A stretch of 64,000 bases of DNA, from assembly GCA_013407085.1 (NCBI GenBank), contig JACCGJ010000688.1, positions 62,001 to 126,000 of the forward strand, in the 5' to 3' direction. This document shows positions 4,418 to 63,572 of this stretch, in pieces. This stretch comes from Atriophallophorus winterbourni (taxonomy: Eukaryota; Platyhelminthes; Trematoda; Plagiorchiida; Microphallidae). Numbering within the stretch: the stretch's first letter is position 1; each line of letters begins with the position of its first letter. The translations under genes were made by a program, and so were the position numbers. The notes beneath the pieces are model-generated. The model searched no databases. It saw only the letters and a list, made by a program, of their open reading frames with translations, and was not told the DNA's origin.

Positions 4418-4462
4418 GCACTGGACTCGAGTTTCGCTCTTATTTGAGCTCATCAGCAGTGC
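4418..4462 (-). ncRNA. Hammerhead ribozyme, canonical type I
   Basis: Read 5' to 3' on the - strand: stem I GCACUG; core CUGAUGA; stem II GCUC-AAAUAA-GAGC; core GAAA; stem III formed by ACUC/GAGU; cleavage base C (GUC); stem I return CAGUGC. All three helices pair perfectly and every core residue fits the consensus. Predicted cleavage is 3' of the GUC, which would release the RNA downstream of the SINE head. Confidence 0.92.
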
Positions 4463-8004: not shown

Positions 8005-8262
8005 GGTTACCATGGCATTCAAGTACAACTTTGTTTACCACTTAACCACTGTTTCAATTCTCACTAAACCCAATCTTATTGTCTCCATCGGATGACGGCA
8101 AACAGCCAGAAACCGATTGTGGTATGTTACTGCGGGAGGGTGTGAGAGCAACACATGGCATTTCTCATTCTTGAGCGCTTGACCAGTAATCACTGTGTGA
8201 TTTGGTGTTTCAACAATGTGATTCGTTCTATGAACCCTATCAAACAGTTTTTTAAATCTTAC
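8005..8262 (+). mobile_element. Circularly permuted 240-bp hammerhead unit (family E)
   Basis: Starts at tggcattcaagtacaacttt, passes through a ribozyme-like stretch, then the palindromic segment near cgaatcac/gtgattc and ends at gaaccctatcaaacag, the point where the next unit would begin. It is close to one unit length but permuted relative to the ribozyme, as expected if a circle or multimer was copied. The core reads CGGAUGA instead of CUGAUGA, so cleavage is probably lost. Confidence 0.6.
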
Positions 8263-8294
8263 CTTGCTTAACCCCAATAGTTCTGCACTTTACA

Positions 8295-8578
8295 CATGTA
8301 AGTCATCGTGTCAAACGACGATGATCGTGTTCACTTGTATCAGATTGGTATGAATATAAATGGACCACCGATCCTACATGAATTGAACCTGCTTAGGCTT
8401 ATTCTAGGCTGTTTATTGGTAAGCTCAAAACAGAGTTGGTGGGTGGAATGCTGTCTGCTCATTTTCCCGACCATCACCGTTGGTCTGACGATACTTCCGT
8501 ATCAAACGCGAAACGTTACCGAGAAACTACTCTAACCGATTTCACGAACGCTCGCAAACATGTTCCAATCGATTGCTC
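8295..8578 (+). mobile_element. Penelope-like element terminal fragment
   Basis: Decayed copy of the PLE 3' tail (gtgttcacttgtatcagatt, ctaggctgtttattggtaag, gttggtgggtggaa) ending in a hammerhead-like stretch with CUGACGA and GAAACGUUACC and then ctctaaccgatt and tgttccaatcgattgc. Stem II of the ribozyme is no longer paired. Confidence 0.6.
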
Positions 8579-15579: not shown

Positions 15580-15915
15580 TAAATGCTTCACACTGTACAA
15601 CAGTGAAACCTAGAGTATTCACGTAACTCACGAACGGCAGCAGTTGTATGCTGACGACGTGACATACGTTCAGCTGCATGGATGTGCAATCGTGCAGTAC
15701 TTTTGTGTTGTGCGGCTAACACCGTGCTAAATTGATTGGCTAGAGGTAGTGAGCTGCGTGCTGAAACACGCTGGAGTCTCACTATCAGTTCCTGTTCTTT
15801 TTTTCTTACTTATATCTGTCTAGGCCTGGGCAACCTGGCAGTATCTTAGCCCATGTGCAGTCTGTGACTGTGCGGCACTTTGCCTGGATCAGGCTTGTGC
15901 TTTCACACACGCACG
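15580..15915 (+). repeat. Family-A repeat, longest copy
   Basis: About 335 bp with all recognisable segments in order: gtatgctgacgacgtgacat, gtgttgtgcggctaacaccg, acacgctggagtctcactat, tgtctaggcctgggcaacct, gactgtgcggcactttgcct and gatcaggcttgtgctttc. A non-coding short retroposon is the most likely identity, but no promoter boxes or TSD were identified. Confidence 0.65.
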
Positions 15916-15984
15916 TTCAGCTGCCGAGAAGAGTAGATAATTGCCTCGGGTGCTCAACATAGATCACACCCTCGTTGTTCAACG

Positions 15985-16115
15985 GCCGCCGTTCAGCCAA
16001 ATATTTTGTATCGCTGTGGGAGAGATTGTTCCATTTCAAATCGATCTGTTGAGTCATTTGGAACGCTTGTGATGGTCATTCTTGGTCGTGATCTAACAAA
16101 GGAGGTTAACAACAA
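15985..16115 (+). mobile_element. LINE-X 3' relic with (AAC)n tail
   Basis: tatcgctgtgggagagattg ttcc and, after decay, acaaaggaggttaacaacaac. The (AAC)n end is the same as at 28878-28895. Confidence 0.55.
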
Positions 16116-16256
16116 CTTGTTTGATTAGTGGGGAGACACATTTGTTTCATTCTTGTCTCCACGTTTCTTATACTCTCTTTCTGTTAGTCAAAACCGAAAT
16201 TAAGAATGTAATATCATTCAATATATTGTGGTGCTCGCATCCCCATCCCTTACACA

Positions 16257-16296
16257 CCACTACCGGTTTCTGGCTGTTTGCCGTCATCAGGTGGAG
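16257..16296 (-). ncRNA. Hammerhead ribozyme, family E (array unit 1)
   Basis: On the - strand: CUCCAC, core CUGAUGA, stem II GGC-AAACA-GCC with a C/A mismatch at its base, core GAAA, self-complementary ACCGGU as stem III, cleavage base A, GUGG pairing with CCAC. All core positions are intact. The very short stem III suggests activity mainly as a dimer, as reported for other minimal type-I hammerheads. Confidence 0.8.
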
Positions 16297-16497
16297 ACAG
16301 TGAGATCATGTTCTGTGAGCCTTGAAACAGTGGATAAATGGTAAACAAGGTTATACTTGTATGCCACTGTTGCATAGGGTTCGTACAACGAACCACGATG
16401 TTCAAACACGGAATCACAAAGTGATTCTTGGTTAAGCACTCAATGCGCTTGTGGATAACCAAAGTAATGTGTTGCTCACATCCCCCGAAATTACACA

Positions 16498-16537
16498 CCA
16501 CTACCGGTTTATGGCTGTTTGCCGTCATCAGGTGGAG
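16498..16537 (-). ncRNA. Hammerhead ribozyme, family E (array unit 2, mutated)
   Basis: Same as unit 1 except the second core box reads UAAA instead of GAAA (the conserved G12 is lost). It should not cleave, which would leave a longer permissive dimer. Confidence 0.75.
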
Positions 16538-16737
16538 ACAGTGAGATCAGGTTCAGTGAGCCTTGAAGCAGTGGATAAATGGTAAACAAGATTATACTTG
16601 AATGCCACTGTTGCATAGGGTTCGTACAACGAACCACGATGTTCAGACACAGAATCACAAAGTGACTCGTGGTCAAGCACTCAAGGCGCTCAAATTGACG
16701 AATGCATTGTGGTGCTCACATCCCCATCCCTTACACA

Positions 16738-16777
16738 CCACTACCGGTTTCTGGCTGTTTGCCGTCATCAGGTGGAG
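16738..16777 (-). ncRNA. Hammerhead ribozyme, family E (array unit 3)
   Basis: Identical to unit 1 over the ribozyme: CUGAUGA, GGC-AAACA-GCC, GAAA, ACCGGU, A, GUGG. Core intact. Confidence 0.8.
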
Positions 16778-16959
16778 ACAGCAAGATTAAAATGAGTGAG
16801 CCTTGAAACAGTGGATAAATGGCAAACGAAGTTAGCCTTGTAGTATCATTCAATTTTTTTTGTGAATTCCTATCCTCGCAATTTCGATTTTTCATTCAAT
16901 TTTCTTTTTACTTGTTTATCCAATCGTTGAGCGCCTTTCGTTCATTAAAAAAACAATTC

Positions 16960-17250
16960 ATTTGGTCAGCAGACGCTGACCTGTGCAATTAATAAATAAT
17001 TAGGGATGAACACAGCCATTAGGAGGTGTGATCAATTATTTTGATCTCCCCTGTCTAGCTTAGAGAACTCAGGATTGGTCAAGAGAATGCCATTTAAACC
17101 TGAACACTGTTCGTACCGACACCCTTGGTCTGACGAAGCTTCTGTGTTCAAAAGCGAAACGTTACCAAAAAACCTGCTCTAACCGATTCATTGCAAACTT
17201 TATTTTCATGATTATGGACTGCCGATCGGTCTCGAATATTTTCAAATTCT
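16960..17250 (+). mobile_element. Penelope-type terminal repeat fragment (second subfamily)
   Basis: Contains gaacactgttcgtaccgaca, a hammerhead, then ctgctctaaccgattc and a ccgatcggtctcgaat end. The same arrangement occurs twice, in opposite orientations, at 31960-32400. No coding part remains. Confidence 0.6.
17125..17168 (+). ncRNA. Hammerhead ribozyme, PLE type
   Basis: UUGGU, core CUGACGA, one unpaired A, stem II GCUU...AAGC with loop CUGUGUUCA, core GAAA, minimal stem III ACGU, cleavage base U, ACCAA pairing perfectly with UUGGU. Penelope-like elements are known to carry minimal type-I hammerheads in their terminal repeats. The extra A next to stem II is a deviation. Confidence 0.65.
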
Positions 17251-17259
17251 TTGCTAATT

Positions 17260-17950
17260 CATTTGGTCCGTTTTCTCCTGTTTACAATCCGTGTAATCTT
17301 TGGGAAGAATCGTCAAGTAATGTGTTTCTCTCCCGGGATGATCACTTGATGCAATCTACTTGACAATGTGAGCTCGTGTGCTGCTTGCTCACCACTACTT
17401 ATCAGTCAACCCACTTCGGGATTTGCCGCAGATGCTATAATAGACTTATCGACCCCGCTGCAAATATTTGACTGCTTCTTTGTATGCTTGGCGAAAACCC
17501 CTTCGTGTTTCTCATTAGATAACACTCCCATTCGGTCTTGGTTTTCGTGTGTTCCTGTTTGTGTTGTGTGACACACAAGCGAGCACAATAGAATCTGGTC
17601 ATGTCCATCATCGTATGCGTAATCTGTCTACGTGGGAATGAGCACTAATCATCTAACAACGCGTTCAAAGTAAAACTCCTTCCACTGTTTTAACGGTTGT
17701 GGATACTAATCTTATCTTAGCCTGATGAACGCAAAACGAGTGAGCCTGGCAGAACGGTGAAATTGCACAACTACACGCGCCTTCGAGGTTACCAACGCTT
17801 TTTATCGTTTAGCTTAATTGCGGATAATGTTTTTGAAAATAATTAACGTGGTCAACAATTTGCTTCTATCGTCTGTATTCAATCACACAATATATCGTTC
17901 AAGTTAGGAGCATCTTCCTGTCGGAACATCAGCTGTATCGTTTAGTTGTT
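17260..17950 (+). other. DOCK intron, nothing recognised
   Basis: No repeat family or coding stretch that I can identify. Confidence 0.5.
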
Positions 17951-21290: not shown

Positions 21291-21726
21291 ACAAATCGAT
21301 TTCGATATGCACATCACCTCGGGAAAATTTTGCCTAAACACACATTTTCCCGTCCGCTTACATACGGAAAATAATGTTCACTTTTCCCACGAAACGCCCA
21401 GTGCAAAATTTGAAACTCAGATTCATCCAAATTGTATACGTATATCCTGTGGTGTGCAAGTGCTCCTTCCAACATAATTCTTGAATCGGGTTAACCCTAA
21501 ACGACGATGAGATTTTTAAATACACAAGTTTAATTTGGCTAAGTATTTTCATCTCCTTTCGAATAGGAACCGAGATTTTTTCCACGTTTGCTCCCGAAAG
21601 GTGATCCATTTTCCTCGTTTGCATGCATTTCTATCACACACACACACACAAAGACCACGATCGGCTTCGTGTTGCACTGCTCGAGTAGGGGCAGTACCAA
21701 CGAGTCGGCATACCTTGAAACAGTAT

Positions 21727-21830
21727 GGTATGAAAGCACAAGCCTGATCCAGGCAAAGTGCCGCACAGTCAGAGGCTGCACGTGGGCTAAGATACTGTCA
21801 GGTTGCCTAGATAGATATGAGGGGGGAAAT
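21727..21830 (-). repeat. Family-A repeat at left duplication boundary
   Basis: tgaaagcacaagcctgatcc ... aggttgcctagatagatatg. The matching block of duplication copy 2 begins inside the homologous repeat at 25945. Confidence 0.7.
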
Positions 21831-21834
21831 TGAA

Positions 21835-22060
21835 ACAGTGGAGAAATTATAAACATGCTATGAGTTTGTGAGTCACTGGTTGGCACGACCAATCTGTACC
21901 CACGCCCATGTAGACGGTCGTGTGGTGTGGTGTGTGGTATGAATGCATGCAGATGAGGATTTTTCGCGGGTTCAAACCCATCTACGTGTGTGGTCACATA
22001 CGATTGAACAGGTTGGTCGAACAGTGGTTCACAAAGTCAACGTGTGATTCATCTGCGGTT
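21835..22060 (+). repeat. Family-S hammerhead-unit remnant
   Basis: cacgaccaatctgtacccac, gtagacggtcgtgtggtg and atgaatgcatgcagatgagg follow the family-S layout, but no core survives. Duplicated at 26050-26240. Confidence 0.5.
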
Positions 22061-22153
22061 TTCCAATCCACTTTGAGTCAAGACTTGACATTCGTGCCAT
22101 TCGTTTGTGTTGTGCGTTGATTAACCATCGTATTTCTATGGTTTTCCCTTCAG

Positions 22154-22292
22154 TGAATTCCTCACGCTGTGCTTGGTGCTCTTGAATCATTATCACACTC
22201 TGATGACCAACGTTCACATGGCCAAGTATCAGGCGATGCGAGAGTCGCTGGATCGGTATCGAGTGGATTTGAGCAATTTGTTGAAGGAGGAG
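22154..22292 (+). CDS. DOCK: DOCK penultimate exon (copy 1), GC donor
   Basis: Acceptor ttttcccttcag; the first base completes the Phe codon left by the previous exon. 46 codons follow: EFLTLCLVLLNHYHTLMTNVHMAKYQAMRESLDRYRVDLSNLLKEE, the C-terminal helix of DHR-2 (DOCK7: KDFTKRCEDALRKNKSLI...EYQRELERNYHRLKEAL). No GT donor follows; the border is GAG|gcaagt, which fits the rarer GC-AG class. Without splicing the frame would end four codons later at ASGSWC*. The exon recurs at 26363-26501 with three synonymous differences only. Confidence 0.88.
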
Positions 22293-22411
22293 GCAAGTGG
22301 TTCATGGTGTTGATTCTTTACCATTCGATCATCACTAGTTGCAACAACTCAACTTCATTTTCACCATTACCACCGTGTAGTTCTTGTTCACGTTTGACCA
22401 GTTGTGTGTGT

Positions 22412-22905
22412 GTGACTATCTCCTCCTGGAGGATGAGTCAGTTTGAATGAAGATTCTTGGGAATTCGGGTACAAAGCGACGTTTGTTCAAGTCAGCTTCT
22501 CTAGCCTGTGCACAACCAAGTGTGACCTGTAAGGCAGCAGGTAGTTGCCAGAGAGAGGTGGTGTGCACCAACTAACCGTCTACCAGACTCTGTTTCAGTT
22601 TTTTCCTTGGGTTTTTCTCCCGAAGCCGTTCCCGCGATCGGGTATTCCGCAAGGCAGCGGAGGTTGAAAATCAGGGTTTTCCTTCCCTTAAATAAAATGC
22701 CCTCCCAGGGTAACGATCTTTATCTACCCGAAGCAAACTGGTTTTCAGGCGCCAGTCACTCGCCCTCGCCGCTTCTGTTGGTGGAAGCAGTTCCGCCGGG
22801 CTTGGGGTTGTCCGAGGTTATTTGAGACGCGCGCCATATGGGAGCATTTTATAAACAGTGGGAGCTTATCCCCACTGCCACCCCCGGCTATGCCAACCTT
22901 TGTTT
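22412..22905 (-). mobile_element. Family-B retroposon (duplication copy 1)
   Basis: Reverse orientation relative to the 18.0-kb copy: ctatctcctcctggaggatg ... ccgcgatcgggtattccgc ... cccactgccacccccggc. Part of the duplicated block, between the last two DOCK exons. Confidence 0.75.
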
Positions 22906-22929
22906 GACCAGTTAAGTGGTGTTTAGCCT

Positions 22930-23190
22930 GTCGTTTTTGTATCCTTCAAAACAGTGTGCTATACTTGGAAGCACTACTGCTCAATAGGGTTTGCACAACG
23001 AACCACGATGTTCGCACTGTAGAATTACACGGAGATTCTCGGTCAAACAATCAAAACAATCAATGTGTTGTGGTGCTAACTGCCTGCCGCGCTTACACGC
23101 CACTGTTTCAAGACTCCTCAAACCTAATCTTTGTCTCCACTTGAAGATGGAAAACAGCCAGAAACTGTAGAATATGTGAGTACCACAGTA
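22930..23190 (+). repeat. Degenerate 240-bp hammerhead unit
   Basis: gggtttgcacaacgaaccac, tttgtctccacttgaagatg and aaaacagccagaaactgta follow the family-E order, but the core has CUUGAAGA. Not active. Duplicated at 27188-27436. Confidence 0.55.
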
Positions 23191-23234
23191 CGTCTGCCTC
23201 TGAGATTATCAACATGCAGCAATTCGTCTCTCGC

Positions 23235-23345
23235 CTACTTGTGTTCATATTATTGTTGGCCTCCTTCGGTCGATGTCGACCATGAATGTACATCACAATC
23301 GCGTGAATGTGTTCATGTTCTGCAGCTTTTTGAATGACTAAACAG
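23235..23345 (-). mobile_element. LINE-X 3' fragment, reverse
   Basis: attattgttggcctccttcg, gtcgatgtcgaccatgaatg and agctttttgaatgactaaac are the reverse of the LINE-X end. Duplicated at 27480-27590. Confidence 0.65.
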
Positions 23346-23611
23346 TCATATACGTATTGGACAAAATAAAATGTCCGACGAGCATTTTTATTTGTACTTT
23401 ATGTCGACAGCATTGCTCCCGCTGCACACCATTCCTTTCGCTTGCCAAGGTCTCGTTTTGTTTTTGTTATTCGAACCTCGTTTTGTCTTTCGCACTCGAG
23501 GACTAGTTGAAAAACAGTGAATGTGCGATCGATTTTTCGTGTATTTTTGTCCTTTGGATACTTCCTCTTCATATTCACACATTCTACGTTGAGGCTCTTC
23601 TCATTTGACAG

Positions 23612-23692
23612 ATTATCGTTGACGAGAAGCTGTCCTACATCGGACCGAAATCATCCGCTGCTGTCCGGCGCCCCTCCGTCCCTACTTCGTGA
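23612..23692 (+). CDS. DOCK: DOCK terminal exon (copy 1)
   Basis: Acceptor tcatttgacag followed in phase 0 by IIVDEKLSYIGPKSSAAVRRPSVPTS and a TGA stop. Phase matches the GC donor of the preceding exon, and a short basic, Ser/Pro-rich tail is what DOCK6/7 proteins have at their end. There is no strong residue homology, so the call rests on splice signals, phase, position and identical preservation in the duplicate. Confidence 0.65.
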   Translation: MIVDEKLSYIGPKSSAAVRRPSVPTS

Positions 23693-23988
23693 TTGGTTGA
23701 AATTCCCACCAATCACGGTGGATTATTTTCTACTCGAGTTCAGTGTACATAGCTGTATGATATTCGATTCTTTGATCCGCTGCTTTCGTTTGACCATTGA
23801 TCATTGGGTTCGGTCTCATCGCGTTCTGCCACTTCGCTTTTATGCTTGTTTCAACCTATGTGTACAAATCAAAAGATTGCTTCACAATTCCCCCCTCCCT
23901 TCTGTTTTGGGCAAACCTTGGGCTGTTGGAAAATTCGCTTCTCAGTCAGTTATAACGCTCATTGCAGCCACGATAAACTGATTGTAGC

Positions 23989-24636
23989 ATGATACCCGTA
24001 TCTTGCGTACTAAATGCTTTACTGTATGGCAGTGAAACCTGGACCACCCACGCAAGACACGAACGGAAGCTGAATGCTTTCCATCTACGAAGCATCTGTC
24101 GTATCTTGAACATATCGTGGATGGACAGAGTGACTAATGCTGAAGTGCTTTCAAAAGCTGGTCTACAGAGCATGTTCACTCTATTGCGACAGCGCCGCCT
24201 GCGCTGGCTTGGTCATGTCTATAGAATGGAAAATGGTCGTATTCCGAAAGATCTACTCTATGGTGAGTTGCAACTAGGAAGTCGACCATTGGGCAGACCG
24301 CACTTGCGGTACAAAGACGTTTGCAAAAGAGATATGAAAGCTCTTGGCATTGACCCGGCGAGTTGGGAAGAACTTGCTCTTGACCGCTCACATTGGAGGC
24401 ACTGTGTAAAGCGTCGTCTGCATGCTGGGGAGGAGCAGATACAGCTCTTGGCGGCTGAACGCAGATCACGCCGCCAACGTGCAGCTGACGCAATACAACC
24501 GAGTTCTGACTATCGTTGCCAGCGCTGCGGGAGAGATTGTTCCTCCCGAATCGGGCTGTTTAGCACTCAAAAAGCTGCAAAACTTGAACATTCACGCGTT
24601 TGTGATGTACATCCATGGTCGACATCGACCGAAGGA
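23989..24636 (+). mobile_element. LINE-X 3' ORF end (copy 1)
   Basis: Single open frame of about 215 codons up to the gap: [52 protein letters not shown], and a terminal zinc-finger-like CQRCGRDCSSRIGLF segment. This is the C-terminal region after the RT domain of a non-LTR retrotransposon. The RT domain is missing, so this is a 5'-truncated copy. Confidence 0.8.
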
Positions 24637-25830: not shown

Positions 25831-25944
25831 CCATGACATGTGTGCAGAAAAACAAGGCGCAAAATAACATGATATTGGAAACTGACAAGGAAAAATGCGA
25901 AAAGGAAAAAAACAAGCAAGTGAAATACGGGAAGCTGATAGAGT

Positions 25945-26045
25945 ATATATGAAAGCACAAGCATGTTCCAGGCAAAGTGCCGCACATTCAGAGGCTGCAC
26001 GTGGGCTAAGATACTGTCAGGTTGCCTAGACAGATATGAGGGGGA
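25945..26045 (-). repeat. Family-A repeat at start of duplication copy 2
   Basis: tgaaagcacaagcatgttcc ... caggttgcctagacagatat. Homologous to the repeat at the start of copy 1. Confidence 0.7.
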
Positions 26046-26362
26046 AAATTGAAACAGTGGAGAAATTATAAACATGCTATGAGTTTGTGAGTCACTGGTT
26101 GGCACGACCAATCTGTACCCACACCCATGTAGACGGTCGTGTGGTGTGGTGTGTGGTATGAATGCATGCAAATGAGGATTTTTCGCGGGTTCAAACCCAT
26201 TTACATGTGTGTGGGTACAGGTTGGTCGAACACTGGTTCACAAAATCAACGTATGGTTCATCTGCGGTTTTCCAATCCACTTTGAGTCAAGACTTGACAT
26301 TCGTGCGATTCCTTTGTGTTGTGCGTTGATTAACCATCGTATTTCTATGGTTTTCCCTTCAG

Positions 26363-26501
26363 TGAATTCCTCACGCTGTGCTTGGTGCTCTTGAATCATT
26401 ATCACACTCTGATGACCAACGTTCACATGGCCAAATATCAGGCGATGCGAGAGTCGCTGGATCGGTATCGAGTCGATTTGAGCAATCTGTTGAAGGAGGA
26501 G
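26363..26501 (+). CDS. DOCK: Duplicate DOCK penultimate exon (copy 2)
   Basis: Same acceptor, same 46 codons and same GC donor (GAG|gcaagt) as copy 1. The three base differences (AAG/AAA, GTG/GTC, TTG/CTG) are all silent. If both copies were spliced in series, the phase-0 end of copy 1 joined to the tga that opens copy 2 would give an immediate stop, so they can only be used alternatively, or copy 2 is unused. Confidence 0.7.
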
Positions 26502-26619
26502 GCAAGTGGTTCATGGTGTTGATTCTTTAGCGTTCGATCATCAACAACTCATGCGCCTTTAACTTCTTTTTCACCATTACCACCGTGTAGTTCTTGTTCA
26601 CGTTTGACCAGTTGTGTGT

Positions 26620-27145
26620 GTGCGCGACTATCTCCTCCTGGAGGATGAGTCAGTTTCAATGAAGATTCTTGGGAATTTGGGTACAAAGCGACGTTTGTTC
26701 AAGTCTGCTTCTCTAGCTTTTGCACAACCAAGTGCGACCTGCAAGGCAGCATGGAGTTGCCAGAAAGAGGTGGTGTGCACCAACTAACCGCCTACCAGAC
26801 TCGGTTCCAGGTTTATCCTCAGGGTTTCCTCCCGAAGCCGTTCCCGCGATCGGGTATCCCGCAAGGCAGCGAAGGTTGAAAAACAGGGTTTTCCTTCCCT
26901 TAAATGAAATGCCCTCCCAGGCTAACGAGCTTCATCTGCCCGAAATAAACTGGTTTTCAGGCATCAGTCACTCGCCCTCGCCCCTTCTCCTGTTGGTAGA
27001 AGCCGTTCCGCCGGGCTCGGGGAGCCACTCGTGCAGGCCAGAAGCTGGACTTGGTTGTCAGAGGCTATTTGAGACGCGCGCCATATGGGAGCATTTTATA
27101 AACAGTGGGAGCTTATTCCCGCTGCCACCCCCGGCTATGACAACC
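26620..27145 (-). mobile_element. Family-B retroposon (duplication copy 2)
   Basis: Duplicate of the copy at 22412-22905. It keeps a segment (gagccactcgtgcaggccag) that copy 1 has lost. Confidence 0.75.
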
Positions 27146-27857
27146 TTTGTGTGACCAGTTGAGCGGTTTTTAGCCTGTCGTTTGTGTATCCTCCAAAACA
27201 GTGTGCTATACTTGGAAGCACTACTGCTCAATAGTGTTTGCACAACGAACTACACTGTTCGCATATAGAATCACACGGAGGTTCTCGGTCAAGCGCTCAA
27301 AACAATCAATGTGTTGTGGTGCTAACTGCCTGCCGCGCTTACACGCCACTGTTTCAAGACTCCTCAAACCTAATCTTTGTCTCCACTTGAAGATGGAAAA
27401 CAGCCAGAAACTGTAGAATATGTGAGTACCACAATACGTCTGCCTCTGAGATTATCAACATGCAGCAATTCGTCTCTCGCCCACTTGTGTTCATATTATT
27501 GTTGGCCTCCTTTGGTGGATGTCGACCATGAATGTACATCACAATCGCGTGAATGTGTTCATGTTCTGCAGCTTTTTGAATGACTAAACAGTCATATACG
27601 TATTGGACAAAATAAAATGTCCGACGAGCATTTTTCTTTGTACTTTATGTCGGCAGCATTGCTCCCGCTGCACACCATTGCTTTCGCTTGCCAAGGTCTC
27701 GTTTTGTTTTTGTTATTCGAACCTCGTTTTGTCTTTCGCACTCGAGGACTAGTTGAAAAACAGTGAATGTGCGATCGATTTTTCGTGTATTTTTGTCCTT
27801 TGGATACTTCCTCTTCATATTCACACATTCTACGTTGAGGCTCTTCTCATTTGACAG

Positions 27858-27938
27858 ATTATCGTTGACGAGAAGCTGTCCTACATCGGACCGAAATCAT
27901 CCGCTGCTGTCCGGCGCCCCTCCGTCCCTACTTCGTGA
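27858..27938 (+). CDS. DOCK: Duplicate DOCK terminal exon (copy 2)
   Basis: Identical in sequence to the copy-1 terminal exon, including acceptor and TGA stop. Together with 26363-26501 it forms a second complete 3' end for the gene. Whether it is used depends on where transcripts end. Confidence 0.55.
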   Translation: MIVDEKLSYIGPKSSAAVRRPSVPTS

Positions 27939-28234
27939 TTGGTTGAAATTCCCACGAATCATGGTGGATTATTTTCTACTCGAGTTCCGTGTACATAGCT
28001 GTATGATATTCGATTCTTTGATCCGCTGCTTTCGTTTGACCATTGATCATTGGGTTCGGTCTCATCGCGTTCTGCCACTTCGCTTTTATGCTTGTTTCAA
28101 CCTATGTGTACAAATCAAAAGATTGCTTCACAATTCCCCACTCCCTTCTGTTTTTGGCAAACCTTGGGCTGTTGGAAAATTCGCTTCTCAGTCAGTTATA
28201 ACGCTCATTGCAGCCACGATAAACTGATTGTAGC

Positions 28235-28895
28235 ATGATACCCGTATCTTGCGTACTAAATGCTTACTGTACGGCAGTGAAACCTGGACCACCACGCAAG
28301 ACACTAACGGAAGCTGAATGCTTTCCATCTACGAAGCATCCGTCTATCTTGAACATATCGTGGATGGACAGAGTGACTAATGCTGAAGTGCTTTCAAAAG
28401 CTGGTCTACAGAGATGTTCACTCTATTGCGACAGCGCCGCCTGCGGTGGCTTGGTCATGTCTACAGAATGGAAAATGGTCGTATTCCGAAATATCTACTC
28501 TATGGTGAGTTGCAACTAGAAGTCGACATTGGGCAGACCGCACTTGCGGTACAAAGACGTTTGCAAAAGAGATATGAAAGCTCTTGGCATTGACCCGGCG
28601 AGTTGGGAAGAACTTGCTCTTGACCGCTCACATTGAAGGCACTGTGTAAAGCGTCGTCTGCATGCTGGGAGGAGCAGATACAGCTCTTGGCAGCTGAACG
28701 CAGATCACGCCGCCGACGTGCAACTAACGCAATACAACCGAGTTCTGACTATCGTTGCCAGCGCTGCGGGAGAGATTGTTCCTCCCGAATCGGACTGTTT
28801 AGTCACTCAAAAAGCTGCAAAACTTGAACATTCACGCGTTTGTGATGTACATCCATGGTCGACATCGACCGAAGGAGGCCAACAACAACAATAAC
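28235..28895 (+). pseudogene. LINE-X 3' ORF end (copy 2, frameshifted)
   Basis: Same sequence as 23989-24636, but with about seven single-base deletions within the first 430 bp, breaking the frame repeatedly. It keeps the zinc-finger-like CQRCGRDCSSRIGLF segment and the (AAC)n end ggaggccaacaacaacaa. Such a cluster of one-base losses next to almost identical DNA could be decay or poor polishing of the assembly. Confidence 0.8.
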
Positions 28896-45268: not shown

Positions 45269-45754
45269 GTGAAATGCACATCTGAAGCCATACGTAGAAT
45301 CTTGAAGCAGGCGGCCATACGCGTAACTTGTAAGAAAGGGAAAACTATCCGTTCGGTTCTGATGCACTTCAAGGATAAGACACCTTTATCTAGCGTTACG
45401 AACAGCATCTACATAATCAACTGTAAGGACTGTTCGGGTGCTTACATAAGGCAGACTTCCAGGGAAATTCACACTAGAATCGAAGAACACCGAAAGCGTG
45501 TTCGGAGACAGCCCCGGGATGCAAGGGAATATCAATTCCTTATTCGTGATTCCGCCTTGGCGGAGCACGTTTTAGATACGGGCCACAGCGTCGATCTAGA
45601 CAATGTGGCAATATTGAGACGCGGTATTAAACCGTATAGCGAACGCTTACATGAGGAGCCGGTCGAAATTGCCAATGCAGGTCGACTGGCGGTCAATAAG
45701 GCGGATGGGTCAGAAATCTCCACAATCTGGCGTTCGGCACTGATGCGAAGGTAA
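45269..45754 (+). pseudogene. Penelope GIY-YIG endonuclease domain (5'-truncated)
   Basis: 161 residues to a stop: TSEAIRRILKQAAIRVTCKK, SIYIINCKDCSGAYIRQTSR, EIHTRIEEHRKRVRRQP, DSALAEHVLDTGHSVDLDNV, INSALM-type end IWRSALMRR. The IYxxxC...C...YIxQT(S/G)R...R..EH pattern, with CxxC-like cysteines between the GIY and YIG parts, is the PLE endonuclease. The GIY-YIG Gly in YIGQT is R here (YIRQT). The open frame is uninterrupted but lacks the RT. Confidence 0.85.
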
Positions 45755-48985: not shown

Positions 48986-49010
48986 CATAAAAACTATTGT
49001 ATTACCAAGG

Positions 49011-49199
49011 TTATACTTGAATGCCACTGTTGCACAGGGTTCGTACAACGAACCACGATGTTCAAACACAGAATCACATAGTGATTCGTGGTCAAGCACT
49101 CAAGGCGCTTATGGATGACCAAAGTGATGTGTTGATCTGCCAAAAACCGGTAGTGGAGTGTAATTTCGGGGGATGTGAGCAACACATCATTACCAGTTT
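49011..49199. mobile_element. Family-E hammerhead unit with internal inversion
   Basis: Runs aggttatacttgaatgccac ... gatgaccaaagtgatgtg in array orientation, then flips at about 49135 to ccaaaaaccggtagtggagt ... gggggatgtgagcaacacat. ATTACCA stands at both borders. A flipped 3' part between short direct repeats is the mark of twin priming. The ribozyme is split by the flip. Confidence 0.6.
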
Positions 49200-49449: not shown

Positions 49450-49632
49450 CATTTGCATGCTTTTCCGTCATTCACACCCCACGACCGGTTTCGTGCTGTT
49501 TGCACTCATCAGGTAGGGACAGTAAGATCAGGATCCGCATGCGCTTGAAACAGTGGAAGAATGGTAAACAAGGAGCGCTGTATGCCACTGTTGGATAAGG
49601 CTGGTACGACCAACCTGTTCAAAGCATGTGTC
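49450..49632 (-). mobile_element. Family-S hammerhead unit
   Basis: From the gap edge on the - strand: aacaggttggtcgtaccagc, cttatccaacagtggcatac, ttgtttaccattcttccact, cttactgtccctac, ribozyme, then ggaaaagcatgcaaatgaat. The order is the same as in family E but with different sequence, so the two are sister families. Confidence 0.7.
49477..49518 (-). ncRNA. Hammerhead ribozyme, family S (intact)
   Basis: On the - strand: CCCUAC, core CUGAUGA, stem II GUGC-AAACA-GCAC (perfect), core GAAA, self-complementary ACCGGU, cleavage base C (GUC), GUGGGG pairing with CCCUAC including one G-U. Every conserved position matches the type-I hammerhead consensus. Confidence 0.88.
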
Positions 49633-49652: not shown

Positions 49653-49854
49653 TTGTTTGGTACATTTATTAATAAGTTAAAAATGGTTTCATCTGATCAA
49701 GCATGTTTTCCGAAAAGTGATTCTCCCATTATTTTTTCATAAGTGAAGATCAGTCTGCATGGACGTGTTTCAATCAGTACACACACTCGAGACTATCACA
49801 GGATCGCAAAATAATAATTTTTTGAATTACATTTCTCTAACGAAGCTAAACTTC

Positions 49855-50500
49855 GAAGCCACTGTTTTATAGGGTTCATAATACGAACCATTGGGCAGAC
49901 CGCACCTGCGGTACAAAGACGTTTGCAAAAGAGATATGAAAGCTCTTGGCATCGACCAGGCGAGTTGGGAAGAACTTGCTCTTGACCGCTCACATTGGAG
50001 GCATTGTGTAAAGCAAGCTGGGGAGGAGCAGATACAGCTCCTGACTGCTGAACGCAGATCATGCCGCCAGCGTGCAACTGATGCAATACAACCGAGATCT
50101 GACTTTCGTTGCCAGCGCTGCGGAGAGATTGTTCCTCCCGAATCGGACTGTTTAGTCATTCCAAAAGCTGCAGAACATGAACATTCATGCGATTGTGATG
50201 TACATCCATAGTCGACATCGACCGAAGGAGGCCAACAATACGAACCACGGTATTCGAACAAAGGATTACATAGTGCTTCGCGGTCAAGCGCTGATGGTAT
50301 TTATGGTTGGCAAATGTAATGTGTTGCTCAAATAACCGGCACAATGTGATTTTGTTTTCGAACGTAGTGGTGTATTGTAGGAACTTTATCAAACAGTAGC
50401 TTCAGAGTCTAAAATTACCTCCCTGAACCAAGTCTCACTGTCTCCACCGGATGACGGCAAACCGCAAAAACCCTAATGATGCCTGTACGCGCGGAACATA
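49855..50500. mobile_element. Family-E unit interrupted by a LINE-X insertion
   Basis: Left part ccactgttttatagggttca taatacgaacca, right part aatacgaaccacggtattcg ... ctgtctccaccggatgacgg caaac. The two halves rejoin perfectly at the duplicated 11-mer AATACGAACCA (49880-49890, 50237-50247). The ribozyme core (CGGAUGA, AAAAAC) is decayed. Confidence 0.75.
49891..50236 (+). mobile_element. LINE-X 3' fragment, 346 bp, with 11-bp TSD
   Basis: Severely 5'-truncated copy: [50 protein letters not shown], with a CCAAC end. Bounded by the direct repeat AATACGAACCA. It gives the exact 3' end of LINE-X and shows target-primed insertion. Confidence 0.85.
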
Positions 50501-51604: not shown

Positions 51605-51770
51605 ACAATATATAAACAAGGTTGTACTTGTATGCCAACTGTTATATAGGTTTCGTACAACGAACCAAGATGTTGAGACACAGAATCACAAAGTGATTCT
51701 TGGTCAAGCACTCGAGGCGCTTATGGATGACCAAAGTAATGTGTTGCTCACCAAGTAAGGGCTGGATGTG
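51605..51770. repeat. Family-E unit fragment without ribozyme
   Basis: caaggttgtacttgtatgcc, tttcgtacaacgaaccaaga, agaatcacaaagtgattctt, gcttatggatgaccaaagta. It ends before the ribozyme part. Confidence 0.65.
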
Positions 51771-51961
51771 AGCACAAATACTTAGAAAACAATATATATA
51801 TAATATATATCTATTAATATATTAATAATATTGATAAGTTGGACCATATCCAAAAACCACGTTGATTACTATGTTTTCTGTGTGCAAACGTTGGTAGCGA
51901 AATGTTAAGAGTTGTGGGTGTAATGTAACAAAAATCGTGTGTATCGATCGCCCCTTAAAAT

Positions 51962-53999: not shown

Positions 54000-54482
54000 A
54001 AATGCACATCTGAAGCTATACGTAGAATCGTGAACCAGGCGGCTATACGCGTAACTAATTAGAAAGGGAAAACTATCCGTTCGGTTCAGATGCGCCTCAA
54101 GGATAAGACACCTTAATCTAGCGTTACGAATAGCATCTGCAGAATCAACTGTAAGGATTATTCGGGTGTTTACATAGGGTAGACTTCCATGGAAATTCTC
54201 ACTAGAATCAAAGAAATTCGAAAGCTTGTCCGGAGACAGCCCCGGGATGCGAGGGAATATCAATCCCTTATTTGTGATTCCGCCTTGCCGGACCACGTTT
54301 TAGATACGGGCCACAGCGTCGATCTAGAAAATGTGGCAATATTGAGACGCGGTATTAAACCGTATAGCGAACGCCTACATGCGGAGGCGGTCGAAATTGC
54401 CAAGGCAGGTCGACTGGCGGTCAATAAGGTGAATGGAGCAGAAATCTCCGCAATCTGGCGCTCGGCACTGATGCGAAGGTAA
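54000..54482 (+). pseudogene. Penelope GIY-YIG endonuclease (broken)
   Basis: The first half has stops (TEASTRRLYA-type decay, and tag in the GIY-YIG region). The second half is open: MEILTRIKEIRKLVRRQPRD, DSALPDHVLDTGHSVDLENV, GAEISAIWRSALMRR. Very similar to 45269-45754. Confidence 0.75.
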
Positions 54483-56393: not shown

Positions 56394-58097
56394 TCACGCG
56401 CCTGGAGTGACCGATGGGCTGAGCACTTTAGTGCTCAGTTTAGCCAGCCACCTCCTCCGACCTCGCCGCCTGAGACACCGATTTGCACGCCTTGGCCCGT
56501 TTCCTTAGCCGCTCCTGATCTCCAGGAGGTGAGAGAGGTAATTCGAGCACTGAAGCGCCACAAGTCACCTGGTCCTGACGACCTCCACCCGATTTTGTTT
56601 AAGGAGGGAGGTGATCTTGTGGCAGCGGAGTTACGTGATTTGTTTACCAAAGTATGGGCTGAGGAGCGGGTCCCGGCGTCATGGGGTGAATCGACGGTTA
56701 TCCCAATCTTTAAGAAGGGCGCACGGAATCTGTGTTCCAATCATCGTGGGATATCCCTGACTCCTGTCGCGTCTAAACTCCTGGTTTCCATCATCCTTCG
56801 TCGGCTATCGCCCATTCGGGAGTTACGTTGCCGTGAGGAACAGGCTGGATTCCGCCCGGGGCGAGGATGCGTGGATCAGCTTTTTGTCCTGCGACAGTTA
56901 TTAGAGCACAGACACCTGTACCGGCGACCAACCATCGTAGCTTTTCTGGACATCCGGGCCGCGTTCGACTCGGTGGACAGAACTACTCTTTGGAACTGCT
57001 TGCTTAGGAGTGGCATCCCTCCTAAGTATGTCGCCATCTTGAAGGAGCTCTATTCTCATTCTTCAGGGAGGGTCAGGGTCTACGGCAGCCTATCGCCGGC
57101 GTTCCCCACAACCAGTGGCGTGCGCCAGGGCTGTCCGCTGTCCCCATTCTTGTTCAACTTTGCGATCGAGGATGTCCTCCAGAATGCTCTCCGTAGCTTC
57201 ACTGAGGGTGGGATCGAGCTACTTCCAGGTAACCGTGTCACTGACCTTGATTATGCCGATGACATTGCTTTGCTTGGTGATGATCCGGTGTTCCTACAGA
57301 ATGCCCTGAACCAGCTAGCATTGGAGGCGTCTAGGTACGGATTGCACTTAGCTCCAACTAAGTGTAAGGTTCTTCTTCAAGATTGGGAGGGGTTGCAGCC
57401 CACTCTGACGGTCGATGACCTCAGTCTGGACTGTGTGGAACAGTTCACCTATCTTGGTAGCTGCATCACGGCGGGAGGAGGGCTGGAAAGTGAGATCGGC
57501 TCTCGCATTGCGAGAGCTCGCTTCGCGTTCACTAGTCTAGGTCATCTCTGGAAGCGGTCTGACGTGAGTTTGAGACTCAAGGGGAGAGTTTACCTGGCCT
57601 CAGTCAGGTCGGTCTTGCTTTACGGGTGCGAGAGCTGGGCAGTACGCGCAGAGGAGCTCCGGCGCTTGGAGGTGTTTGAACATCGATGTTTACGGAGGCT
57701 TGCACGAGTGTGGTGGCAACACCGCACTAGCAACGTTGAAGTGAGGCACCGTGTTCTAGGTGGGGACAGCCTGATGCTACGAGACCTAATCGACCGTTCC
57801 CGTCTCCGCTGGCTAGGGCATGTCTTGAGAATGAAGCCTGAGCGCCTACCATCCCGCGCGCTGCGTGTGTCGGTTGGCCCAGGCTGGCGGCGGTGTTCAG
57901 GTGGACAACCGCTGACCTGGAAGAAGGCCTTAAAACGCTTGACGTCGGGTTTAGCTCGGGTCGGACGAACGCGGCTTCCTGGGTGGGGTCCAAGGGATAG
58001 TGAGTGTCTGTGGCTTGACACGCTGTCGACGATGGCTGAGAACCGGCAACAGTGGAGAGAGTGCATTCTATTTTGTGTTCCCCCCTCAAATTTGTAA
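56394..58097 (+). CDS. Reverse transcriptase of RTE-like LINE (open, N-terminus missing)
   Basis: Open over 568 codons without a stop. It lacks a natural start because the element is truncated; the first Met in the frame is at 56529. Order: DRWAEHFSAQFSQPPPP, ALKRHKSPGPDDLHPILFKE, STVIPIFKKG, EEQAGFRPGRGCVDQLFVLR, VAFLDIRAAFDSVDRTTLW (catalytic Asp), TTSGVRQGCPLSPFLFNF, DLDYADDIALLGDD (catalytic YADD), TYLGSCITAGGGLESEIGSR, SVLLYGCESWAVR, RLRWLGHVLRM, TRLPGWGPRD. All RT catalytic residues are present. It cannot retrotranspose by itself without the endonuclease. Confidence 0.9.
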   Translation, partial: SRAWSDRWAEHFSAQFSQPPPPTSPPETPICTPWPVSLAAPDLQEVREVIRALKRHKSPGPDDLHPILFKEGGDLVAAELRDLFTKVWAEERVPASWGESTVIPIFKKGARNLCSNHRGISLTPVASKLLVSIILRRLSPIRELRCREEQAGFRPGRGCVDQLFVLRQLLEHRHLYRRPTIVAFLDIRAAFDSVDRTTLWNCLLRSGIPPKYVAILKELYSHSSGRVRVYGSLSPAFPTTSGVRQGCPLSPFLFNFAIEDVLQNALRSFTEGGIELLPGNRVTDLDYADDIALLGDDPVFLQNALNQLALEASRYGLHLAPTKCKVLLQDWEGLQPTLTVDDLSLDCVEQFTYLGSCITAGGGLESEIGSRIARARFAFTSLGHLWKRSDVSLRLKGRVYLASVRSVLLYGCESWAVRAEELRRLEVFEHRCLRRLARVWWQHRTSNVEVRHRVLGGDSLMLRDLIDRSRLRWLGHVLRMKPERLPSRALRVSVGPGWRRCSGGQPLTWKKALKRLTSGLARVGRTRLPGWGPRDSECLWLDTLSTMAENRQQWRECILFCVPPSNL

Positions 58098-59345: not shown

Positions 59346-59933
59346 GAAACAGTGCAGAATATGTGATAATATACAAGAGAAAATGATCTTATAAATTAGC
59401 TTAGACTGAACGCCGAGAGAACGAAGACGAAAAGCACAAAAAGAACTTTAGTAAGTAAAATATTATGATAATGCGCCCTAGTAAGATTGTCGGATATGGT
59501 GACCCCTAGATGCTTGACGTATTTTCCTCTAGTGCGAATTGCTTCGCGACGATAGCTATGTAGATTTGTGAACACAAGTTCAGTACATTTTTCTTCATCA
59601 AAGATAACTAAAATCTCTCAATTAATGATTGGATTATCTGCGAATGTTATGGTAATCTAGTAAAAACAGAAAGGATAGTTTTTGATATTTCGTCCGTAAA
59701 TAATAGAAGTAGTACTTTAATGACAATTATTGTTCGCTTATTGCGCATCCCTCATCAGATCGATAATTTTTGGTCCAAAAACCAATAAGCTTATCATGTC
59801 CAAGAAAGGAGTTGTGTCGTGCCAATCACGAGATTTCGAACGAGATACAGAACACCGCCCTCCGGCAAAACACAAGTGCAGGAAGCGTCGAAAAGACCGA
59901 CAAAGACGAGATTTGCGAACCCGTAATAATTCA

Positions 59934-60038
59934 AGGCTCACTGAACCTCATCTTGCTTTCTCCACCTGACGACGGCAAACAGCCAGAAACCGGTAATGGT
60001 GTGTAAGGGATGGAGATGTGAGCACCACAATACATTGG
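59934..60038 (+). mobile_element. 105-bp hammerhead retroposon with 13-bp TSD
   Basis: Truncated family-E unit from aggctcactgaacctcatct through the ribozyme to gagcaccacaatacattgg, flanked on both sides by CCGTAATAATTCA (59921-59933, 60039-60051). The end at acattgg defines the 3' terminus of the mobile RNA, since the tandem array also ends at tatattg. Confidence 0.88.
59961..60001 (+). ncRNA. Hammerhead ribozyme, family E (core intact, weak stem I)
   Basis: UCCAC, CUGACGA, GGC-AAACA-GCC, GAAA, ACCGGU, A, then AUGGUG where GUGGUG is expected. The core fits, but the first base pair of stem I is lost. Confidence 0.65.
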
Positions 60039-60424
60039 CCGTAATAATTCAGTTTTCGGATTGATTGACTTCGAACGATTCAAGCGACAACATATTCGGA
60101 AGCATACGACGATGAAGAAATTCAGTCGGAATCGAAAGAAATGTAATTCTTCATGGTCGGGCATTACGTGTTAAAGACTTGAAGCCTACCGGTTGGAACA
60201 GAATCGATTGACAAACAAGATCGGAGAGAGAAATGTTTCAGGAAGCCTCGCGGCTACCTGATTTGCCTATATAAGATGTGCGTGTGTGTTTTGCTATTTG
60301 TCTTGAGCGTAATAAACGCGTTGACAACTCGGCTTTCTCTTGTGTTGAGGGAATAGCGTTGACCTCAGGGAGGAATCAGGACGCAATGTTCAAGTAGCTG
60401 TGAAACTCGGGGGTACCGCAATCG

Positions 60425-63304: not shown

Positions 63305-63317
63305 TCACTTCACGTAA

Positions 63318-63572
63318 AGTGATGTGTTGCTCACATCCTCCGCACTTGCACACCACTACCGGTTTCTGGCTGTTTGCCGTCGTCTAGTGGAGACAGTAAG
63401 ATTAGGTTCAGTGAGCCTTGTAAGTGCGGGGGATGTGAGCAACACATTACTTTGGACATCTATAAGCGCCTTGAGTGCTTGACCACGAATCACTATGTGA
63501 TTCTGTGTTTAAACATCGTGGTTCGTTGTACGAACCCTATGTAGCAGTGGCATTCAAGTATAACTTTGTTTA
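63318..63572. mobile_element. Family-E hammerhead unit with twin-priming inversion
   Basis: The left ~100 bp is a - strand ribozyme part (accactaccggtttctggct ... gtgagcctt). The right ~150 bp is a + strand part (gtgcgggggatgtgagcaac ... ggcattcaagtataac). TCACTTCA-Y-GTAA flanks it (63305-63317, 63573-63585) with one mismatch. The ribozyme core reads UAGACGA, so it is not active. Confidence 0.7.

Follow-up and report, generated by a model that had tools for sequence, protein, structure and literature searches.

Platyhelminths are among the named hosts of metazoan non-LTR retrozymes, which the part of the source cited here (Cervera & de la Pena 2020, PMC7229834) describes as tandem repeats of about 150-450 bp, found as dimers to multimers, with a type I hammerhead, a GC content below 50%, no LTR and, when present, target duplications of more than 4 bp. 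In the portions cited here, Penelope-like elements (PLEs) are described as starting synthesis internally at two adjacent sites and extending both target strands (PMC11167929), and as carrying pLTRs placed head to head, one of which may have a tail, and duplications of 8-10 bp (PMC3846280). We analyzed a hammerhead-bearing array on contig JACCGJ010000688.1 of the trematode Atriophallophorus winterbourni, in a stretch of 64,000 nucleotides that we call the window. Like the metazoan retrozymes, the array consists of tandem repeats with a type I hammerhead, low GC and no LTR; its unit is ~241 bp long, its family ranges from <1 to >21 units, and target duplications occur at the array (11 bp) and in 13/22 insertions.

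To the retrozymes as described (PMC7229834, in part), the insertions here, which are known from DNA alone, add two internal 3' sites, head-to-head composites and mixed units. With PLEs, in the same portions of PMC11167929 and PMC3846280, they share head-to-head copies in which one end is extended, tandem copies and a duplication round the whole insert, as well as two internal start sites past the hammerhead (PMC11167929). The distance to the first start site nearly equals that in the resident PLEs (retrozyme median 43 nt, versus 43-48 nt and ~45 nt in the two resident clades). They differ from PLEs in having no ORF, in a second site further out (~160 nt) and in sharing no sequence with the PLE clades examined. 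We consider it fairly probable that the array is a protein-less metazoan non-LTR retrozyme and that PLE-type reverse transcription placed it here as a heteromeric multimer. Elements of this kind are already known; what is new is the insertion grammar linking it to PLEs, of which a full-text literature search, with Cervera & de la Pena 2014 and Lunse et al. 2017 outside its scope, found no report.

RESULTS

A hammerhead array enclosed by an 11-bp duplication

A preliminary description of this DNA had placed a perfect 11-bp duplication on either side of the block. This was borne out by sequence comparison and a permutation test: the two copies of TATCATTCAAT, at 16212..16222 and 16844..16854 (neither assigned a strand), are identical at 11/11 bases. 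Counted with a one-mismatch extension, the pair scores 12, and no score above 10 occurs among 462 mismatched left/right flank pairs. Homology to the family ends within a few bases of both copies. Between them, a tandem array with a period of ~241 bp fills 621 bp, or 2.58 units (16223..16843, minus strand). The hammerheads of the array are on the minus strand, with the 3' end of the block, where reverse transcription would have started, at 16223 and the 5' end at 16843. Read from the 5' end, the block holds a partial unit (unit positions ~143-244; 16742..16843), a full unit that is subfamily III-like over positions 1-41 (16502..16741), a full unit that is subfamily I-like over positions 1-100 (16261..16501) and a 3' partial unit (16223..16260) that stops at start site 1, ~38-42 nt beyond the cut, all on the minus strand. 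Three 240-bp units, each with a hammerhead, had been described earlier; the motif is indeed present at three places, and the number of units is 2.58, not three. The earlier label "retrozyme" suits the block, a ~241-bp tandem repeat with a hammerhead motif, a GC content of 0.46 (unit consensus, 0.45) and no long coding frame. The longest ATG frame overlapping the array has 92 aa, no frame for a reverse transcriptase and GIY-YIG nuclease was found in the array, and no tRNA gene was found in 15800-17300.

A hammerhead motif with a mismatched stem II base

The motif runs in the order stem I (CCAC/GUGG), CUGAUGA, stem II (CGGC-AAACA-GCCA), GAAA and stem III (ACCGGU), with A17 before the cut. Core nucleotides are intact in the motifs at 16734..16781 (minus strand; predicted cut between 16742 and 16741) and 16253..16300 (minus strand; predicted cut between 16261 and 16260). 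In the middle motif (16494..16541, minus strand), G12 is changed to U; because TAAA replaces the GAAA that the core requires, this hammerhead should be inactive, judging from its core. With the middle hammerhead predicted to be dead, cleavage at the two intact motifs would release a product of 481 nt instead of 240, so a 240-nt circle derived from the 16223-16843 locus itself appears unlikely.

Stem III is a loopless palindrome, ACCGGU. In a predicted co-fold, two copies pair through a 6-bp stem III into a double hammerhead. Because the palindromic stem has no loop, the ribozyme should, on this model, act as a pair of neighboring units. The same loopless palindromic stem III, for which dimers are expected, characterizes the small dimeric PLE hammerheads (Lunse et al. 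2017, as cited in the parts of PMC7761336 and PMC6466107 used here), from which the present motif differs in the mismatched base of its stem II (C.A or U.U). The open stem I is that of a type I hammerhead. Rfam models, including Hammerhead_1 (RF00163), reported no hammerhead in 15800-17300 even at E <= 10, so the type I assignment rests on the motif and the co-fold. This silence of the Rfam models also separates the unit from the schistosome Sm-alpha type hammerhead SINEs (PMC8490949 and PMC6155905, in part), which are likewise hammerhead-bearing, non-autonomous flatworm elements.

All three motifs of the array have a C.A mismatch at 10.1:11.1, the base of stem II. Among 334 motifs, this position is C.A in 205 and U.U in 106, and the rarer states are U-A (7), G-C (3), G.U (2), C-G (1) and others (10). 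The 10.1 and 11.1 columns, unit positions 221 and 233 in the arrays of loci L001-L075, are linked (r2 0.85 across 241 full units): the C.A and U.U forms switch together, and paired intermediates are rare. In a few older relatives, GUGC pairs with GCAC in stem II; one of them (GUGC-AAACA-GCAC, with C17) lies at 49484..49622 on the minus strand. Because these relatives are paired, we read 10.2:11.2 as having gone from U-A to G-C on both sides and 10.1:11.1 as having lost its pairing. Elsewhere in the window, Rfam reports a separate type I hammerhead (RF00163, 37.4 bits) at 4418-4462 on the minus strand. We take this one to lie, perhaps, in a schistosome Sm-alpha-like SINE.

Sister insertions and their target duplications

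Searched against the 537-Mb assembly, the array gave at least 61 matches (40 scored of 6211 first-look candidates). We surveyed the family in ~306 kb of genome, partly picked for arrays, and found pieces of <1 unit, blocks of 1-3 units and arrays of >21 units. Together, the window and ten other stretches contain 26 insertions; the ten lie on contigs already brought in by earlier searches and form a non-random sample. Within the window, an insertion of <1 unit at 59932..60040 (plus strand) has a 13-bp duplication, CCGTAATAATTCA. Three head-to-head insertions, none with a single strand, lie at 51616..51783 (ends at sites 2 and 1; 11-bp duplication AACAATATATA), 63316..63572 (ends at sites 1 and 2; 13-bp duplication with one mismatch) and 49010..49188 (ends at sites 2 and 1; 7-bp duplication ATTACCA). 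For the insertion at 8013..8272 (plus strand), which ends at site 2, no target duplication was found. At 49839-50471, one unit copy appears to be interrupted by a LINE fragment (about 49891-50217) and to adjoin a second copy head to head. The window also contains a 567-codon open LINE frame with RVT_1 (56394-58097, plus strand) and a ~2.9-kb stretch present twice, at 21716-24636 and 25936-28876, with 92-97% identity and flanking a 1000-N gap, which is either a tandem duplication or an assembly duplicate.

Further duplication-flanked insertions had been named earlier as something to look for in the genome, and they were found. With duplications counted where they abut both insertion ends, 13/22 delimited insertions score >=8, against 2% of 462 mismatched left/right flank pairs; the mean score is 8.1, against a maximum of 6.0 in 20,000 permutations, and some of the 22 boundaries were refined by eye, which favors the test. 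An earlier automatic test with no hand-set boundaries gave >=8 in 9/33 insertions, in 2/9 of which the match lies away from the boundary; its control is inflated by shared element sequence, making it weaker than the 22-insertion test. The same arrangement thus recurs at other loci, and at the array the duplication encloses the whole block, in line with the earlier proposal that it was inserted once as a multimer.

Duplications scoring >=7 occur in 13/16 insertions of <800 bp versus 1/6 of those >1 kb (Fisher p = 0.011), and long arrays therefore have a different or longer history. Four G000 contigs (C6120, C1202, C13641 and C8609) carry long unit arrays with 18 to 26 matches each, mostly without target duplications at readable ends. 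Long arrays blend two ribozyme haplotypes in an order not distinguishable from random, a result of little weight, as repeat assembly can scramble unit order.

The units of the array differ like separate subfamilies

We compared the units of the array with each other and with copies elsewhere. The two full units have an identity of 0.78 over positions 1-41 and 0.77 over 42-100, are identical over 100-142, and reach 0.94 over 143-244, no higher than with copies elsewhere. One of them matches subfamily I elsewhere at 0.976 (1-41) and 0.966 (42-100), and over 1-41 the other has an identity of 0.951 to subfamily III copies. Compared across the whole unit, their identity to each other is 0.884, versus 0.894 to other copies. 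At three subfamily-I loci, identity within arrays (0.95-0.979) spans much the same range as that between arrays (0.954-0.979). Units within these insertions are no more alike than units between them, in support of insertion as a multimer.

These comparisons bear on two other histories. In one, a single unit or fragment was inserted with its duplication, and the array then grew by unequal exchange. Long arrays do exist, and 5/6 insertions >1 kb are without a duplication, so growth or rearrangement probably occurs in the retrozyme family. For the array studied here, however, we regard this history as very improbable: over positions 1-100 its full units are closer to different subfamilies elsewhere than to each other, within-insertion identity at the three subfamily-I loci is no higher than between insertions, and identity along arrays does not drop with distance. 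In the other history, a circular RNA of one unit was copied repeatedly into identical units that diverged later. This follows the published retrozyme model (PMC7761336, PMC7229834, in the parts cited), and the subfamily-I insertions are compatible with it, but the units of the array differ by subfamily markers and a two-unit circle would fit as well; we give this history hardly any credence. Because the full units differ like separate subfamilies over positions 1-100, both growth from one inserted unit and copying from a one-unit circle appear unlikely on sequence grounds. A two-unit circle or a mixed linear transcript is possible as the template. Of the earlier suggestion that the template was a multimeric or rolling-circle-copied RNA, the multimer is supported and the one-unit circle is not.

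We rejected two further candidates. A two-unit higher-order repeat, suggested by match spacings of 482-484 bp, is not supported, as identity does not change with lag. If ribozyme-cut monomers were joined at random, linkage should break at the cut; no clear break was found, and part of the linkage stems from subfamily structure.

Sharp 3' ends at two sites

We mapped insertion ends on unit positions numbered from the ribozyme cut. The 3' ends are sharp, 40/42 falling at ~43 or ~162 nt beyond the cut: 24 of the 42 resolved ends lie at positions 34-54 (median 43), 16 at 147-172 and 2 at 220-221. The 29 outer 5' ends are scattered over positions 1-187. Five ends at which the alignment stops at the unit end were set aside, and the likely duplicates W27206 (of W22959) and L088 (of L087), insertions cut by contig or data edges, and matches of <60 bits were left out. 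C8982 resembles C1726 and was kept among the 42 3' ends; for W22959 the right end was placed by eye, and for W50240 the left end is on the far side of a nested insertion. Sharp 3' ends combined with loose 5' ends are the signature of target-primed reverse transcription. Where an insertion begins at site 1 and extends back over the ribozyme cut, its template cannot have been a monomer cut at that point. Among head-to-head composites with both outer ends read, 10/11 have one end per site; the remaining one, C15003:104863, has site 1 at both ends.

A target-primed signature would also be expected of a SINE mobilized by one of the LINEs of the window, and LINE reverse transcriptases are present. 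We nevertheless give this next to no weight: no tRNA gene was found in 15800-17300, the 3' ends examined share no simple tail, and the two internal 3' sites are at PLE distance.

Resident PLEs end at similar distances from their hammerheads

A PLE reverse transcriptase peptide query gave at least 150 matches in the genome (150 scored of 2717 candidates), many at a tandem spacing of ~2520 bp and with open frames of at least 800 aa. Opposite-strand PLE pairs within 2.6 kb were head to head in 4/4 cases among the matches listed. Pfam detected RVT_1 in one PLE frame, with GIY-YIG just under the cut-off. Six G000 contigs (C11715, C10209, C13126, C7240, C10286 and C4720) hold head-to-tail PLE tandems of ~2520-2531 bp with open frames of >800 aa, which suggests recent activity.

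One group of PLEs, clade A, carries a hammerhead-like motif after the ORF stop, and within this motif is an ATG that begins an open frame. As we read it, stem II of the motif is preceded by an extra U and stem I has just 2 bp; its cut was assigned by motif. Copies end at 43 nt past the assigned cut in L090, in L040/L041 and in one L047 copy, and further out at 48 nt (L037) and 75 nt (L047, L091 and L092). Other alignments, mostly older, stop at 10 nt (L032/L087), at 104 nt (L038/L039) or before the cut (L043), and a reversed piece in L032, L086, L087 and L088 stops at 89 nt. A second clade A search gave 46 rows. Of these, 17 stop short, 1 of them at 43 nt and the other 16 at 69-82 nt; 26 reach the query end, and 3 are pieces of 36-37 nt. 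The PLE composite C15693 has one end per site and C7447 has the second site at both ends; L047, with ends at 43 and 75 nt, was left out of the composites as one of its copies has an identity of 70% and the other 88%.

Clade B is represented in the window by nuclease fragments at 45278-45640, 54006-54365 and 61199-60855, and its motif, TTGGT-CTGACGA...GAAACGTT-ACC, lies 314-554 bp downstream of them. Motifs of the clade B type, with a palindromic ACGU stem III, occur at 8480, 17125, 32326, 46059 and 54919 (plus strand) and 60541 (minus strand), and at three of these six places a clade B nuclease fragment precedes the motif. Ten of 12 copies were aligned: four lose homology ~45 nt past the cut and four at ~86-99 nt, and W32326 and W8480 fit neither position.

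The first end thus lies ~43-48 nt past the cut in all three elements (retrozyme unit, clade A and clade B), and the second at ~75 nt in clade A, ~86-99 nt in clade B and ~160 nt in the retrozyme. Neither the unit model nor BLAST found any sequence shared among the three.

DISCUSSION

Our preferred reading is that the block was laid down by PLE-type reverse transcription of the heteromeric RNA of a non-autonomous retrozyme, with a type I hammerhead in a unit of ~241-244 bp. PLE machinery would reverse transcribe this RNA, either a transcript of several units or a circle holding two or more different ones, at a cut target. Synthesis would begin internally, either at site 1 (~43 nt beyond the ribozyme cut) or at site 2 (~160 nt beyond it), and proceed upstream across one or more units, halting at a variable place. 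Closure would leave a target duplication of about 8-16 bp around the whole block. Where both target strands prime, two head-to-head copies would result, usually one per site. We infer that the helper is a PLE protein, that the retrozyme RNA undergoes cutting or circularization, and that its ribozyme is active.

Several observations weigh against PLE machinery. Retrozyme site 2 (~160 nt) is far more distant from the cut than the second end of the PLEs (~75-99 nt); it lies ~115-120 nt beyond the first, whereas a second PLE start site would be expected only 30-40 nt further. A duplication is missing from 5/6 insertions of >1 kb. Clade A alignments also stop at +10, +89 and +104 nt and before the cut, two clade B copies misfit, and composite C7447 has the second site at both ends. 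No sequence common to the unit and the PLEs of the surveyed loci was found beyond separate insertions.

The unit could instead be the pseudo-LTR of a PLE family not found here, the arrays being its ORF-less derivatives; the mechanism would be unchanged, and the array would be a PLE remnant, not a retrozyme. The insertion grammar equals that of the resident PLEs, and minimal hammerheads whose stem III is palindromic or missing are described in tandem in PLE pseudo-LTRs (PMC7761336, in the part cited). Against this, no PLE carrying the unit, and no PLE frame joined to it, was found in the loci surveyed, the unit model matches PLE loci only as separate insertions, the clade A period has no above-chance similarity to the unit, and ORF-less arrays of at least 21 units occur. 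We therefore rate a PLE remnant as rather improbable.

Returning to insertion of a retrozyme multimer by PLE-type reverse transcription, we tentatively raise a more specific possibility, which we would not yet favor: the retrozymes of this genome may be parasites of PLEs that keep the stretch of RNA read by the PLE enzyme, a weak, dimer-acting hammerhead with a start site ~43 nt on. The template would be an uncut heteromeric multimer, and the stem II mismatch would persist either because slow cleavage spares multimers or because PLE protein is needed for folding.

The mixed units of the array argue against a one-unit circle as the sole template. The insertions of this family bear a readable signature, with two start sites, the first at the distance used by the resident PLEs, and head-to-head copies with one end extended. 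This signature makes the suspected partnership between retrozymes and PLEs directly testable in vitro.
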